This document shows positions 2,740-62,094 of a DNA stretch of 64,000 nucleotides, piece by piece. This DNA comes from Immundisolibacter cernigliae (GTDB lineage Bacteria; Pseudomonadota; Gammaproteobacteria; Immundisolibacterales; Immundisolibacteraceae): positions 2,170,001-2,234,000 of the forward strand of contig NZ_CP014671.1 of NCBI RefSeq assembly GCF_001697225.1, written 5' to 3'. The position numbers were made by a program, and so were the translations under genes. Numbering within the stretch: the stretch's first letter is position 1; every line of letters starts with the position of its first letter. The notes under the pieces were generated by a model. The model was given only the letters and a program-made list of their open reading frames with translations, searched no databases and was not told where the DNA came from.

Positions 2740-2791
2740 GGGAGCCATCCTTTCCGCTTGACAGGTTCCGTATCGCGGAACATGCTTGCGC

Positions 2792-3070
2792 ATGATCCGC
2801 GCATTCGCCTGTTCCGACACCGAAGCGCTTTTCCATAGCCGGTCGGTGCCGCGATTCAGGAACATCGAGCGCGTAGCGCGACGCAAGCTGCTGCAACTGC
2901 ACGCCGCTACCGAGCTGACCAGCCTGAGGGTTCCTCCTGGCAACCAGCTCGAAGCGCTGAAAGGCGATCGCAAGGGGCAGCACAGCATCCGGATCAACGA
3001 CCAGTGGCGCCTGTGCTTCGTTTGGCAAGACGACGGAGCGCACCAGGTCGAGATCGTGGACTACCACTAG
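2792..3070 (+). CDS. higB: HigB-type toxin (RelE/ParE superfamily)
   Basis: Predicted 92-residue toxin of a type II toxin-antitoxin module; family members are ribosome-dependent mRNA interferases. The hallmark C-terminal half is present: a PPGNQLEALKGDR segment, then SIRINDQWRLCFVW and the terminal VEIVDYH. The ATG at 2792 gives the usual MI-x-F start; an in-frame TTG lies six bases upstream. The antitoxin follows after 11 bp, so toxin comes first as in higBA operons. It begins about 50 bp after guaA, at the edge of an accessory patch. Confidence 0.9.
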   Translation: MIRAFACSDTEALFHSRSVPRFRNIERVARRKLLQLHAATELTSLRVPPGNQLEALKGDRKGQHSIRINDQWRLCFVWQDDGAHQVEIVDYH

Positions 3071-28368: not shown

Positions 28369-29820
<1,452 letters not shown>

Positions 29821-29821
29821 C

Positions 29822-31258
29822 ATGAGCGCCTGGGAAACCGTCATCGGCCTCGAAGTCCACTGCCAGCTGGCCACCCGCAGCAAACTGTTCTCGGGCGCCG
29901 CCACGGCGTTTGGAGCCGAACCGAACACGCAGGCCTGCGCCATCGACCTTGCCCTGCCGGGCGTGCTGCCGGTGCTCAATCGCGAGGCGGTGGCCATGGC
30001 CATCAAGTTTGGCCTGGCCGTCGGCGCGCAGATCGCGCCCCGCTCGGTGTTCGCGCGCAAGAATTATTTCTACCCGGACCTGCCCAAGGGCTACCAGATC
30101 AGCCAGTACGAGCTGCCGATCGTCGCCCTGGGACATCTGGACATAACGCTGCCGGACGGCACCGGCAAGCGCATCGGCATCACCCGCGCGCACCTGGAGG
30201 AAGACGCCGGCAAGTCCCTGCACGAGGACTTCCACGGCCTGACCGGGATCGACCTGAACCGCGCCGGCACGCCGCTGGTGGAGATCGTCTCCGAACCGGA
30301 GCTGTCCAGCGCCGCCGAGGCGGTGGCTTACCTGAAAAAGCTGCACGCCCTGGTGCGGTATCTGGAAATCTCCGACGCCAACATGCAGGAAGGCTCGTTC
30401 CGCTGCGACGCCAACGTGTCGGTGCGCCGGGTCGGCGACAGCAAACTGGGCACGCGGGCCGAGATCAAGAACATCAACTCGTTCCGGTTTGTGGAGCGCG
30501 CCATCGAGGTCGAGGTCGAGCGCCAGATCGAGCTGCTGGAAAGCGGCGGCCAGGTGGTGCAGGAAACCCGCCTGTACGACGCCGAGCGCAACCAGACGCG
30601 CGCCATGCGCAGCAAGGAAGAAGCCAACGACTACCGCTATTTCCCCGATCCGGACCTGCTGCCGATCGAGGTATCCGAGGCCTGGGTGGAGCACCTGCGC
30701 GCGCAATTGCCGGAACTGCCGCAGGCCCGTCAGGCGCGCTTCGTGTCGCAGTACGGCCTGTCCGATTACGACGCCGGGCTGCTGACCGCCGAGCGGGAGC
30801 TGGCCGACTACTTCGAAGCCTCACTGACCAGCGGCGCGGAACCGAAGCTCGCCGCCAACTGGATCAACGGCGAACTCGCCGCCGCCCTGAACCGCGACGA
30901 TCTGCCGATCACTGCTTCCCCGGTCAGCCCGGCCGCGCTGGGCGGATTGCTGGGGCGCATCGTGGATCAGACCATTTCGGGCAAGATCGCCAAGGACGTG
31001 TTCGCCGCCATGTGGCAGGGCGAGGGCGAGGCCGACGCCATCATCCAGGCGCGGGGCCTGAAGCAGATCACCGACACCGGCGCCATCGAGGCGGCTGTCG
31101 AGCAGGTGCTCAGCGCCAATCCAGATCAGGTCGAGCAGCTGAAAGCCGGCAAGGACAAGGTGCTCGGCTTCCTGGTCGGTCAGGTGATGAAGGCCACCGG
31201 CGGCAAGGCCAACCCGGCGCAGGTGAATGCGCTGCTGCGGTCAAAGGTCGGCGTTTAG
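29822..31258 (+). CDS. gatB: Asp-tRNA(Asn)/Glu-tRNA(Gln) amidotransferase subunit B
   Basis: Kinase/transamidase subunit that phosphorylates and amidates the mischarged tRNA. The start [15 protein letters not shown], the segments [29 protein letters not shown] and [13 protein letters not shown], and the C-terminal YqeY-like tail domain ([21 protein letters not shown]) are all typical. 478 residues. A REP-like element follows 13 bp after the stop. Confidence 0.98.
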
Positions 31259-31376: not shown

Positions 31377-32003
31377 TCACCAGAACGCCCACAACTGCCC
31401 GTCCTGTTCCCGGTGCGCGAGCGCGCGCAGCGGCCGGGAGCCCTTGGCCACACACATGCCGCTGCCTAGATCGAATGCCCAGCCGTGGCGGGGGCAGGTC
31501 AAGCGCGCGCCGTCAATGGCCAGTTCCGGGATGTCGGTGCTCTGGTGTGGGCAACGGGCGTCGTAGACCATCAGCTCGGTGTCCGTTCGGTGAATGAACA
31601 CGGCGCGGCCGTCAGCCTCACGGCGCAGGCTGCCGGTGGGCGGCAGTTCGGCCAGGGGCGCCAGCGCATGCCAGTCCGGCACGTGGCCGAGCTGATCGAG
31701 GCGAAACTCCGGCAGGTCCAGCGCCAGCAGCTGGTCCACCGCCCACACGATCCGCGTCAGGCCCAGCATCGGAAAGGCCATCAGCAGGGCGTCGAGCACC
31801 TCGTCGGCGCTGGCGCCGCTGCGCAGCGCCCGCGTCAGGTACTGACGAAAGCCGCGTTCGGTCTGCGCGTGGACCTTGCTGATGAGGGAAATCAGCGCCT
31901 TGGTCTTGGGATCCAGACGCCGACCGGCCACCTTCAGGAAGGCGAAATACGGCTGCATGGCGTCCGGGCGGGCCTGGATCAGGTAATCGAGGGCTTGGCT
32001 CAT
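31377..32003 (-). CDS. Carboxymuconolactone-decarboxylase-like domain fused to a Rieske [2Fe-2S] domain
   Basis: A 208-residue two-domain protein of unknown role. Residues ~15-95 look like an AhpD/carboxymuconolactone decarboxylase fold (KTKALISLISKVHAQTERGF...GASADEVLDALLMAFPM) but lack the CxxC of AhpD. Residues ~115-208 form a Rieske ferredoxin domain with the complete cluster motif Cys151-x-His153 and Cys170-x2-His173. It could be an electron carrier tied to an oxygenase or a small redox sensor. It stands alone, divergent from the SDR gene. Confidence 0.8.
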   Translation of the reverse strand: MSQALDYLIQARPDAMQPYFAFLKVAGRRLDPKTKALISLISKVHAQTERGFRQYLTRALRSGASADEVLDALLMAFPMLGLTRIVWAVDQLLALDLPEFRLDQLGHVPDWHALAPLAELPPTGSLRREADGRAVFIHRTDTELMVYDARCPHQSTDIPELAIDGARLTCPRHGWAFDLGSGMCVAKGSRPLRALAHREQDGQLWAFW

Positions 32004-32128
32004 GTCGGGTGCTCGCGGCGACAGCGGGTAGTTCCATTATCGGGCCGCTGCTGACTCTTTTATCAATGCCCGGTGCAGTTGTTGCCTGCGGCTAAACTGG
32101 CACGGCAATCGTGATGGAGGAGATACGG

Positions 32129-32917
32129 ATGGAACTTGCGCTGCGCGGAAAGATCGCCCTTGTCACCGGCGCCAGCGCCGGCATTGGCCGGGCCATCGCC
32201 CAGGCGCTGGCGGCCGAAGGCGTACAGCTGACGCTGTGCGCGCGTGGCGAGGCGCCCCTGCGCGCCCTGGCAGACGAGCTGGAACAGCAATGCGGCATTG
32301 CCGCGCTGGCGGTGCCGGCCGATCTGTCCACCGAGGCCGGCATCGCGCAGCTGGTGGCGGCCCATACGGCGCGTTTTGGTGCCCTCGACATCCTGGTCAA
32401 CAACGCCGGTTCCATCCGCGCCGGTTCGCTGCTGAGCAAACCGGAAGCGGAGTGGCAGGAGGATTTCGCGCTCAAGTTCTGGGGCTATGTGCGCCTGACG
32501 CGCGCCGTCTGGCCGCTGCTGATGGCGCGCGGCGGCGGGCGGGTGCTGAACATCATCGGCGGCGCCGGCCGCCAGCCAAGCGCGGGTTATCTGGCCGGTG
32601 GCGCCGCCAACGCCGGCCTGATGAACCTGACCAAGGCGCTGGGCGACGAGGGCGCGCCGCACGGCATCCTGGTCAACGCCATCAACCCCGGCGCCGTGCG
32701 CACCGCCCGCTGGCAAAGCCTGATGCAGCGCCAGGCGGCCGAACGGGGCGTCACCGTGGCGCAGCTTGAAGCCGAGCAGCTGGCCCACGTGCCGCTGCGC
32801 CGCGGCGGCGAGCCGGAAGAAATCGCCTGCGTCGCGGTGTTCCTGTGCTCGGCGGGCGCCAGCTACATCACCGGCACCACGCTGCAGGTGGATGGCGGCC
32901 TGGCGCGCTGCATCTGA
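32129..32917 (+). CDS. Short-chain dehydrogenase/reductase-like protein with an altered active site
   Basis: A 262-residue Rossmann-fold protein. Cofactor motifs are present: TGASAGIGRA at 13-22 and NNAG at 91-94. The catalytic Tyr154 is present (SAGYLAGG), but the Lys expected at YxxxK is Gly158 and the upstream Ser position is not Ser. NAD(P) binding is likely, while ordinary SDR catalysis is doubtful. The ATG at 32129 is preferred because GGAGGAG lies 8 bp upstream; GTG 32111 and ATG 32114 are alternatives. The MFS gene starts 5 bp later, so they probably form an operon. Confidence 0.88.
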   Translation: MELALRGKIALVTGASAGIGRAIAQALAAEGVQLTLCARGEAPLRALADELEQQCGIAALAVPADLSTEAGIAQLVAAHTARFGALDILVNNAGSIRAGSLLSKPEAEWQEDFALKFWGYVRLTRAVWPLLMARGGGRVLNIIGGAGRQPSAGYLAGGAANAGLMNLTKALGDEGAPHGILVNAINPGAVRTARWQSLMQRQAAERGVTVAQLEAEQLAHVPLRRGGEPEEIACVAVFLCSAGASYITGTTLQVDGGLARCI

Positions 32918-50604: not shown

Positions 50605-50862
50605 ATGGGCATGAACGTCAACCTCACGCCGCACCTGGAAGATTGGGTGCGCAGCAAGGTCGCCTCAGGCTTGTACAACTCGGCCAGCGAGGTGGTGCGC
50701 GACGCGCTGCGGCTGCTGGAGGAGCAGGATCAGATGCGCACCCTGCGCCTCGATCAGTTGCGCGCAGAAATCCAGCGGGGACTGGACAGCGGCCCCGCCG
50801 AGCCATGGGATGCGCAGGCCCTGAAGCGGCAACTTGCCGCCGGTAAGACCCCAGACGAATGA
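50605..50862 (+). CDS. ParD-like antitoxin
   Basis: An 85-residue antitoxin with the ribbon-helix-helix start MNVNLTPHLEDWVRSKVASGLYNSASEVVRDALRLLEE (CC2985/ParD type) and a flexible acidic tail that would wrap the toxin. It overlaps the ParE toxin gene by 4 bp. It begins an accessory run of toxin-antitoxin pairs on the plus strand. Confidence 0.92.
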   Translation: MGMNVNLTPHLEDWVRSKVASGLYNSASEVVRDALRLLEEQDQMRTLRLDQLRAEIQRGLDSGPAEPWDAQALKRQLAAGKTPDE

Positions 50863-51158
50863 GCCGGATCCTGCGTCGCCGCCAGGCGGCGGCGGATATT
50901 GCCGACATCTGGCGGCACATCGCCCAGGACAAGCCCGCGGCCGCTGACCGGTGGATCGATGACCTCGACCAGCAGTTCGGCCTGCTGGCGCGACAACCCC
51001 TGATGGGCCGCGAGCGCGGCGAAATAGCCGTTGACGTGCGCAGCTTTCCGTTCGGGCGCTACGTCATTTTTTACGTCCCGCTTGCAGATGGCATCGACGT
51101 TTTGCGTGTGTTGCACTCGTCGATGGACATCGAAGCCCGATTCGATCGTGGCCCGTAG
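50859..51158 (+). CDS. ParE-like toxin
   Basis: A 99-residue RelE/ParE-superfamily toxin. The pattern ILRRRQAAADIADIWRHIA, PLMGRERGEIAVDVRSFPFGRYVIFY and IDVLRVLHSSMDI is that of ParE, whose members target DNA gyrase. It is translationally coupled to the antitoxin upstream. No sign of truncation. Confidence 0.93.
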   Translation: MSRILRRRQAAADIADIWRHIAQDKPAAADRWIDDLDQQFGLLARQPLMGRERGEIAVDVRSFPFGRYVIFYVPLADGIDVLRVLHSSMDIEARFDRGP

Positions 51159-52107: not shown

Positions 52108-52347
52108 ATGCAAACCGAAATCAAAAAATGGGGCAACAGCGCCGTGGTCCGGCTGCCGGCGCCGATGCTGTCCGAGCTTGGCCTCACGGTGGGCTTGCGC
52201 ATCGAGCTGAAACACGAAAACGGCCGTCTGGTCATCGAGCCGGTCCGCCCCGTGCGCGAGGGCTGGTTTGCCGCGCCGGTTGCCGCGGACGAAGACGCCT
52301 TCGCCACCCTCCGGCCGGACGAAGGGGATGACGAATGGGTGTGGTGA
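52108..52347 (+). CDS. MazE-like antitoxin (AbrB fold)
   Basis: A 79-residue antitoxin with the swapped-hairpin DNA-binding domain IKKWGNSAVVRLPAPMLSELG at the N-terminus and an acidic C-terminal tail (FATLRPDEGDDEWVW) for toxin binding. It overlaps the MazF gene by 13 bp. Confidence 0.92.
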   Translation: MQTEIKKWGNSAVVRLPAPMLSELGLTVGLRIELKHENGRLVIEPVRPVREGWFAAPVAADEDAFATLRPDEGDDEWVW

Positions 52348-52649
52348 GGCGCGGCGAGGTCTATTGGGTCAACCTCGACCCGACCGTCGGCATCGAAATC
52401 CGCAAGACTCGACCCGGCCTGGTGATCTCGCCCGACGACATGAACGCCGCCCTGCCGCGCGTCATCGTGGCGCCACTGACCAGCAAGGCACACCCGCTCG
52501 GCTGCCGTCCCACGGTGGAATTCGGCGGCAAGCAGGCGCGCATCCTGCTCGACCAGCTTCGCGCCATCGACAAACGCCGGCTCGGCGGCCGCGTGGGCAG
52601 CATCGACCTTGCGTTGTGGCATCCGGTGCTGGTGGAGATGCTGGCATGA
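52335..52649 (+). CDS. MazF-like endoribonuclease toxin
   Basis: A 104-residue toxin. MazF features are RRGEVYWVNLDPTVGIEIRK, TRPGLVISPDDMN, VIVAPLTSK and ARILLDQLRAIDKRRLGG. It cleaves single-stranded RNA at short motifs; the cut site cannot be read from sequence. The length and all core motifs are normal, so it looks functional. Confidence 0.93.
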   Translation: MGVVRRGEVYWVNLDPTVGIEIRKTRPGLVISPDDMNAALPRVIVAPLTSKAHPLGCRPTVEFGGKQARILLDQLRAIDKRRLGGRVGSIDLALWHPVLVEMLA

Positions 52650-60197: not shown

Positions 60198-60740
60198 TCA
60201 GGGAAATACGTTCAGGCTCTTGCTCATGAAGATGTTTTGCTGCGCGGTCAGCAGACGCCGGGCGATGCGCAGTTGCCCGTCCACACGCCGCAGCAGGTCC
60301 TCGCGCAGGCAGTAGAGCGTGTGCTCCTCGTCCTCGTTCATGTTGCGGTACACGACTGAGATGGAATGCACGCGGTATTGGTCCGGATCATCCGTGTGCT
60401 CGACCTCCACGTTGTGCACCAGGTGCGCGGTGCGCGTGGCCGGGTCTTCGGTCCAGCAGGTGCCGGTTTCCAGGCGCGCGATGCGCTTTTCCAGATGCTC
60501 GAGATGGTCGTTGTAGTAGGCGCTGTGCAGCACGGACGGCGCGCGCTCGTCCCGCTGGTAGCGCTGCACGCGGGCCGGCATCCAGTAGTGGATGTCGGGC
60601 GCCAGCAGCGCCAGCCAGGCGCGGTAGTCCTGGCGGTCCTTCAGGCGCGCTTCGCGGTAGTAGAACTGCTGGACTTCGCTGATCAGCTCCAATGAGGGCG
60701 GCTGCGCGGCCGCCTGCACGTCCCTGGCGATTGCGTTCAT
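60198..60740 (-). CDS. Aromatic-ring dioxygenase beta subunit (pair 2)
   Basis: A 180-residue SnoaL-fold structural subunit that assembles with alpha as an alpha3beta3 hexamer. It shows FYYREARLKDRQDYRAWLALLAPDIHYWMP, the RTAHLVHNVEVE middle part and the usual tail LLTAQQNIFMSKSLNVFP. It begins 14 bp downstream of the interrupted alpha gene and ends 12 bp before the monooxygenase start, so the order is conserved and tight. Its intact state suggests the alpha gene should also be intact. Confidence 0.93.
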   Translation of the reverse strand: MNAIARDVQAAAQPPSLELISEVQQFYYREARLKDRQDYRAWLALLAPDIHYWMPARVQRYQRDERAPSVLHSAYYNDHLEHLEKRIARLETGTCWTEDPATRTAHLVHNVEVEHTDDPDQYRVHSISVVYRNMNEDEEHTLYCLREDLLRRVDGQLRIARRLLTAQQNIFMSKSLNVFP

Positions 60741-60754
60741 GGGCGGTCTCCGGG

Positions 60755-62094
60755 TCAGGCGGTGGGCCGGCCGGCGTAGCGCGGCGCGTAACGCTGCGGC
60801 ACGTCGGACCAGGATTTGGCGTTCATGAGGTCCGCCCAGCGCTGGTAGAACAGGCGCTGGTTGGCGTCGTTGAACTGGCCCTCGTGGACGATGCCCGGCA
60901 GTTCCGGGTGCTCGATCTGGCGGCTCTTGCCGCAGCCGTAGTGCAGCTTCTCGTGCCGGCTGACCCAGCCGCGGTTGGTGCGGGTGTTGCCCTCCCAGTT
61001 CTCGCCGTCGTCCATCTCCAGCGTGCCGGCGGGGTTGAAGGTCAAGTTGCAGCCGATGTTGATGGCCTGCTTCACGGACTCGGGGCGTTCTTGTTCACGA
61101 CGGTCCAGATGCGCAGCTCAAGCTTGCGCGGGCCGCGCGGCAGCCACATGCGAAAGGTGTGGATGCCGGGCAGGAAGGTCATGTTCGGGAACATGGCGGC
61201 CGAGGCCAGCGAGCCGAACAGGCGCGCGCGCAGTTCGCCAAGGCGCTGCGCGATCTTCGGCTTGAGCGCCGCGTAGTAGTCGGTGACTTCCTGCGAACCG
61301 AGGATGGCGATGTCGCCGAATCCTTCGAGCGCGAACTCCCAGCCGTGGCCGTTGACGCTGGCGTGATAGGTGTCTTTCGGGTCGTAGGCCGGGAACGGCC
61401 CACCCATCATGGCGCGACCACCCGCGTCGTGCGTCCACCAGGCGTGGTAGGCGTCGCCGATGAAGTTCTCGACGCCGAACTTCCAGTTGGCGTTGGCGTA
61501 GGACTTGATGGTGCCGGGCAGGAACTCGATGCCGCCCTCGTCGTTGTCCAGGAACGCGTCCAGGTACCAGCGGTAGTCGCCGAGGTACTCCTCCAGACCG
61601 GGCGCCTGCGGGTCGAAGGTGGCGAAGATCATGCCCTTGTAGGTTTCGACCCGCGCCTGGCGCGGCCCCCAGGCGGCCTTGTCGATGTCGCCGGCGTCGT
61701 AGGCTTCGCGCTCGCTGGGCAGGCCGGTCAGTTCGCCGGCCGTGCTGAAGGCCCAGCCGTGGTAGTTGCAGGTGAAGCGGCGCGCGTTGCCCTCGTCGGC
61801 AAAGCAGATCTTGTTGCCGCGGTGCGTGCATGCGTTCAGGTACACGTATACCTTGCCGTCGGCGTGGCGGGACACGATCACGCCGTCCTCGCCGATGTAG
61901 GTGGTCACGAAATCGCCACTGTTGGGCAGCTGCGAGTCGTGCGCCACGAACTGCCAGCAGCGCGCGAAGATGGCCTCCAGCTCACGCTCGTAGATGGCCT
62001 CGTCCCAGAAGATGCGCCGGTCGACCCAGCCGGCGTCGACGTTCACATAACGGAAATAGTCCTGCGGCGGCTGTGCCTGCTCGTGGGGTCTCAT
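60755..62094 (-). pseudogene. Aromatic-ring dioxygenase alpha subunit (pair 2), apparent single-base frameshift
   Basis: Two abutting frames encode one alpha subunit. The first (61072-62094, 340 aa) has the Rieske ligands Cys89/His91 and Cys109/His112, and the iron ligands His217 and His222 with Asp214. The second (60755-61075) supplies the C-terminal part: GCNLTFNPAGTLEMDDGENW and ERLFYQRW-type tail (QRLFYQRWADLM). The frames meet at about 61080-61087 in GCCCCGAGTCC, where one extra base gives NAPESVKQAIN. A GTG/TGA overlap at the joint could instead allow split subunits, but no such split is known to me. The strong ribosome site GAGGAGGAGGCGCCC precedes the ATG. Confidence 0.88.

Follow-up and report, generated by a model that had tools for sequence, protein, structure and literature searches.

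A gene of 208 codons in Immundisolibacter cernigliae joins a carboxymuconolactone decarboxylase (CMD)-like domain to a Rieske domain, and the question it raises is what two such folds do together in one small protein. The gene lies in the 64,000-nucleotide stretch of this genome that we analysed (hereafter the window), which also encodes oxygenases. A preliminary description, made from the sequence letters, had proposed that the fusion could be a dedicated ferredoxin or a redox sensor for one of those oxygenases. The gene, its parts and its immediate neighbours are as follows.

31377..32003, minus strand: CMD-Rieske fusion gene, 208 amino acids, ATG start (open reading frame, Pfam, AlphaFold2 model)
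31734..31967, minus strand: CMD domain (PF02627), residues 13-90 (Pfam), within a conserved helical half that spans residues 1-96
31839..31862, minus strand: position of the AhpD CxxCxxxH motif, here T48...G51...Q54-Y55 (HMMER alignments to 1vke, 1p8c and 2af7)
31446..31673, minus strand: Rieske domain (PF00355), residues 111-186, with a beta fold that runs to residue 207 (Pfam, AlphaFold2 model, fold matches)
31485..31553, minus strand: [2Fe-2S] ligand stretch C151-P-H153 ... C170-P-R-H173, invariant in 34 of 34 members and at least 95% conserved in 62 sequences
28369..31258, plus strand: gatA and gatB, convergent neighbours outside the system (gatB by Pfam, gatA named from sequence)
32111..32917, plus strand: SDR-family dehydrogenase, divergent neighbour, not recurrent elsewhere (Pfam, neighbourhood comparison)

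An MFS gene also lies on the divergent, SDR side of the fusion. Elsewhere in the window we noted a ring-hydroxylating alpha subunit that is apparently split in two (60755-62094, minus strand): 61072-62094 covers the Rieske domain and some of the catalytic domain, the C-terminus of the adjacent alpha subunit is matched at 40% by 60755-61075, and a beta subunit lies alongside at 60198-60740. Three toxins of toxin-antitoxin type, HigB-like, ParE and PemK/MazF-like by Pfam, were found at 2786-3070, 50859-51158 and 52335-52649, respectively.

Domain architecture and conserved residues

Both domains were matched above their Pfam cut-offs, the Rieske domain at E 9e-13 and the CMD domain at E 4e-6 (27.2 bits vs a cut-off of 23), and all 34 aligned family members matched both models, CMD at E 0.01 or better. 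From the fusion sequence alone AlphaFold produced a low-confidence model (pLDDT 55), and we used instead an AlphaFold2 model built with the 34-sequence family alignment, which has a mean pLDDT of 92.1 and consists of helices over residues 3-95, a short linker and a beta fold. The reading frame is not a chance one, since an orthologue of 96% identity is present in the genus and the start and length are near-constant across divergent relatives; the start position is kept in full-length relatives and, two truncated or read-through cases aside, the length is usually 207-215 amino acids, reaching 229 in some members of one family of genomes (f109, discussed below). No export signal or hydrophobic N-terminus is visible in the protein sequence, which would place the protein in the cytoplasm. 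Scanning for promoters and terminators around the gene gave nothing useful.

The complete C-terminal Rieske motif that the preliminary description had read at C151/H153 and C170/H173 is correctly positioned and invariant in the 34 aligned members, as is an additional cysteine, C184, in the same half. The structures that aligned best with this half by VIA-align were stand-alone Rieske ferredoxins (2qpz, Z 14.6; 1vm9, Z 13.9). Ferredoxins are its nearest match in fold and rank among its top matches in sequence. For the CMD half, residues 6-101 aligned with the gamma-CMD 2af7 at Z 10.7 and an rmsd of 6.0, so that this structural match is only a loose one, and profile matches were obtained to 2q0t, 7y4r, 1vke and 2af7. 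Since the Rieske half fills the top Foldseek rows and the VIA list, where the CMD half appears only via 2af7 in row 50, it is chiefly Pfam and the profile search that underpin the CMD assignment. With that qualification, the AhpD-like N-terminal domain that had been proposed was borne out by the Pfam match and by structure prediction, the model having a helical N-terminal half with 2af7 among its fold matches.

The same domain had been said to lack CxxC, and this was also confirmed. In HMMER alignments the Cys, Cys and His of the CxxCxxxH protein 1vke fall on T48, G51 and Y55, and the residue of 2af7 at the Y55 position is His; both AhpD cysteines and the PcaC-type His have thus been lost from the fusion, which has an invariant Gln-Tyr in their place. 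Absence of CxxC is ordinary for PcaC-type proteins but absence of the His is not, and CMD proteins encoded elsewhere in the Immundisolibacter genome retain CxxCxxxH or LKxH. In a set of 62 sequences, conservation reaches 95% or more at eight residues of the CMD half: R12, D31, K43, G51, Q54, Y55, E68 and D71. This half is the better conserved of the two, with a mean majority-residue share of 0.77 vs 0.63 for the Rieske half in clade 1 and 0.90 vs 0.65 in clade 2 (these figures and the tree described below exclude loci L080 and L081, from genomes G077 and G206).

Distribution and phylogeny of the family

The fusion was present in 7 of 56 relatives and in 35 of 369 gammaproteobacterial genomes, with the window's genome counted wherever it falls within the sample. 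Three genomes with Rieske-only rows (G229, G257 and G307) were dropped from an initial 38 to give the latter figure, and two (G077 and G206) were kept although they aligned over the CMD part alone, since G206 lies at a contig end and G077 aligned over residues 1-208 in another search. A sample of the phylum yielded 43 carriers among 398 genomes, 40 of them in one other class (hereafter the second class), where the fusion is found in 40 of 48 genomes and in 25 of the 27 good ones. We take this class to be the Magnetococcia, with Magnetococcus marinus MC-1 as a member, and presume it to be sulfur-oxidising. Family f109 had the fusion in 30 of 299 genomes and is probably burkholderial, judging from its synteny with the named Rubrivivax and Leptothrix loci and its place beside them in the tree; the contigs of named genomes held eight full-length loci among nine, from Rubrivivax, Leptothrix, Aquabacterium and unclassified Burkholderiales. 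In two f109 loci the two domains were matched separately, divided by a spacer in one (G988:C7:118036-118722) and lying in different frames in the other (G798:C9:285-906).

Nearly all carriers have a single copy. When the CMD half was used to search 274 genomes, matches were returned in 27, every one a carrier of the fusion, and the CMD half was never found without its Rieske half. The tree separated the two classes with full support; one branch sets off the second class, and another the burkholderial group, from the rest. The window's own family does not come out as one group, its two genera being apart, which may reflect transfer or a long-branch effect. No relative of the fusion was detected on plasmids at E 1e-15, and of seven matches on viral contigs six covered the Rieske part only and one covered residues 52-186 at 23% identity.

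The window's protein reached no NCBIfam model above cut-off, and the open-licence literature that we searched, the SoeABC and sulfur context included, yielded no description of a CMD-Rieske fusion as judged on titles and the beginnings of abstracts. The combination had been called unusual, with the proviso that it might prove common and of known role. At about 10% of the sampled Gammaproteobacteria it is indeed uncommon, and we found no account of its role, but it is a recurrent family rather than a one-off. We conclude that it is an old, conserved and uncharacterised family of redox proteins with a fixed CMD-Rieske union: two textbook folds that together form a family of their own, carried by about a tenth of the Gammaproteobacteria sampled and by most of the second-class genomes sampled.

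Gene neighbourhoods and candidate roles

For comparison of neighbourhoods, genes were called by a G+C-position heuristic, the errors of which fall mostly in low-GC loci. Burkholderial loci show a recurrent order on one strand: MopB molybdoenzyme, 4Fe-4S subunit, DmsC-type anchor, TauE/SafE (or SulP), small membrane protein, USP, fusion and FadL-type porin, to which some add an SQR-like flavoprotein. We scored as sulfur markers the molybdoenzyme, FeS subunit, DmsC anchor, TauE, SulP, SQR-like protein, rhodanese and SoxA/B/X. Within the stretch fetched, 22 of the 29 burkholderial loci had at least one marker, one of them (L170) solely through a weak 26% FeS match, and 19 had at least two; of the seven without a marker, two come from a short contig or from the vicinity of a contig end. 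By marker, the counts were 13 for the molybdoenzyme, 17 for the FeS subunit (two of these matches being weak, at 26-30%, and on the other side), 15 for TauE, 5 for SulP, 6 for the SQR-like protein and 3 for SoxB/A/X, while the non-sulfur neighbours USP and FadL were present in 14 and 21 loci. The family names of the sulfur-island neighbours are backed by Pfam or NCBIfam. The molybdoenzyme itself fell below every curated cut-off (best model PhsA, 240 of 694 bits), and its subunit make-up suggests that it is SoeABC-like, SoeABC being the name that we assume for this cluster.

Outside the burkholderial group a sulfur marker was near the fusion in only 3 of 55 loci, none of the three in the second class. 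In these three the marker was SoxB, within 4 kb of the fusion; the genomes (G238, G316 and G089) are gammaproteobacterial and belong to two families. Across the 369 Gammaproteobacteria SoxB was not enriched in carriers (16/35 vs 135/334 non-carriers; Fisher P 0.59), and it had no match in the window's genome at E 1e-50. The burkholderial loci belong to related lineages, so the sulfur island may reflect few independent events. A sulfur role is therefore well linked in the burkholderial group and unproven elsewhere.

On the strength of the gene's place in these islands, we tentatively favor an auxiliary role for the protein, in electron transfer or redox response, in the oxidation of reduced sulfur (sulfite, sulfide or sulfane), by a putative mechanism. 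Electrons would be passed on by the Rieske half, and the CMD half would form a core that is specific to the partner and probably oligomeric; where the fusion stands alone, as in the window's genome, the same protein would act in trans. Support comes from the near-constant architecture and start, from a CMD half that never occurs alone and is the better conserved, and from the presence of the fusion in 40 of 48 genomes of the class that we presume to be sulfur-oxidising. A fuller version can be drawn, in which a cytoplasmic electron-transfer protein of sulfite or sulfane-sulfur oxidation forms a CMD oligomer with a Gln-Tyr site, its Rieske clusters draw electrons from or regulate SoeABC/SQR-type dehydrogenases, a membrane-anchored two-cysteine protein is the alternative partner in some lineages, and the gene is a core gene of magnetotactic cocci; in all this detail we consider it decidedly unlikely. 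The burkholderial neighbourhood nonetheless provides a testable sulfur-oxidation lead for a protein that would otherwise be annotated as a stray ferredoxin or decarboxylase.

Alternatively, the protein may be a redox or oxidative-stress sensor or adaptor, with the Rieske cluster as reporter of the redox state and the CMD oligomer relaying the signal to a partner such as the USP, a membrane-anchored protein or a Na/H exchanger. A USP gene precedes the fusion in the 14 burkholderial loci counted above, and NAD/FAD reductase and rubrerythrin-like genes lie directly upstream in two loci from one family of the second class (L127 and L130; Pfam for L127 only). Ten carriers encode a small membrane-anchored protein immediately upstream; its gene either overlaps the fusion by 4 or 8 bases or stops no more than about 100 bases short of it.

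Immediately before the fusion gene: candidate membrane-anchored partner, in loci L073, L075, L054, L062, L059, L076, L078, L063, L080 and L081

From its sequence this candidate partner has about 146-214 amino acids, a single hydrophobic helix at its N-terminus and a domain that contains two invariant cysteines; the two members that we scanned matched no Pfam family. Among 75 genomes (40 carriers and 35 non-carriers), a profile of the partner picked out these 10 and no others, a count that could miss distant copies since the profile was built from the same loci, and the partner was not found in the window's genome. Against a sensor or adaptor, no single partner is common to all lineages and the fusion protein has no DNA-binding or kinase domain, and we regard this role as doubtful.

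It is unlikely, in our estimation, that the protein is itself an enzyme, with a CMD pocket (K43, T48, Q54, Y55 and others) that binds a small substrate and a Rieske cluster that supplies or removes electrons. The greater conservation of the CMD half speaks for catalysis, as do its many polar invariants (R12, D31, K43, Q54, Y55, E68 and D71), a number beyond what a scaffold for oligomerisation would apparently require. However, that half retains neither a metal nor a cysteine active site, and Rieske clusters elsewhere are not known to act on the substrate themselves.

There remains the proposal that the fusion serves one or several ring-hydroxylating oxygenases encoded in this genome as their dedicated ferredoxin. 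In its Rieske half the protein is similar to oxygenase ferredoxins, and the genome has 78 Rieske matches at E 1e-6 in 3.24 Mb, which is very many for its size and in keeping with the 21 xylX copies given for I. cernigliae in one report (PMC9535955). The only Rieske matches within the window were the fusion gene and three alpha subunits, so that the oxygenases were rightly said to have no ferredoxin of their own there, as far as Rieske-type ferredoxins are concerned. However, other short Rieske frames of the genome (122-153 amino acids) could be stand-alone ferredoxins, the oxygenase genes found in the window lie at least 9.4 kb from the fusion (41441 onward and 61072 onward), its direct neighbours being gatAB and the SDR gene, and no oxygenase was present among the identified recurrent neighbour clusters. 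We also examined 21 carriers chosen for low Rieske counts from a total of 36, the others having more Rieske matches. In three (G304, G335 and G392) the fusion was the sole PF00355 match at E 0.001, and 15 of the 21 had no other Rieske frame of 300 amino acids or more. The remaining frames in these genomes were mostly of about 105-130 amino acids, or of about 195-280 with partial matches, which by size we label ferredoxin/NirD and bc1-Rieske, respectively. With carriers that have no other Rieske protein and no visible linkage to oxygenases, the distribution disfavors this reading, which we consider highly improbable; nor does anything tie the protein to an oxygenase as its redox sensor.

Comparison with known systems

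SoeABC-like sulfite-oxidising and Sox clusters are related to the fusion by gene position, since in burkholderial relatives the gene lies inside or beside such a cluster, whereas in most other lineages these genes are absent from the fetched neighbourhood. With AhpD (5dik) the protein shares a fold superfamily and a weak profile match (E 0.0018), but it has neither CxxC nor the His after it, which rules out AhpD chemistry. It is like PcaC and the CMD family (2af7, 2q0t) in its CMD fold, PF02627 match and LDxKTRxL stretch, and differs in that the conserved His is replaced by Tyr and a Rieske domain is attached; only 2 of 34 members matched the PcaC model TIGR02425 (best E 0.0024), and we do not assign the family to PcaC. 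Unlike the Rieske-type ferredoxins that serve dioxygenases and monooxygenases (2qpz, 5bok and T4moC, 1vm9), the fusion carries a CMD domain and the invariant extra C184, has no visible linkage to oxygenases and occurs in genomes with no other Rieske protein. It nevertheless shares with them the CxH...CxxH ligands and the beta fold of about 100 residues (Z 13.9-14.6), and with both ligands and fold in place its C-terminal half is predicted to be a [2Fe-2S] electron-transfer domain.
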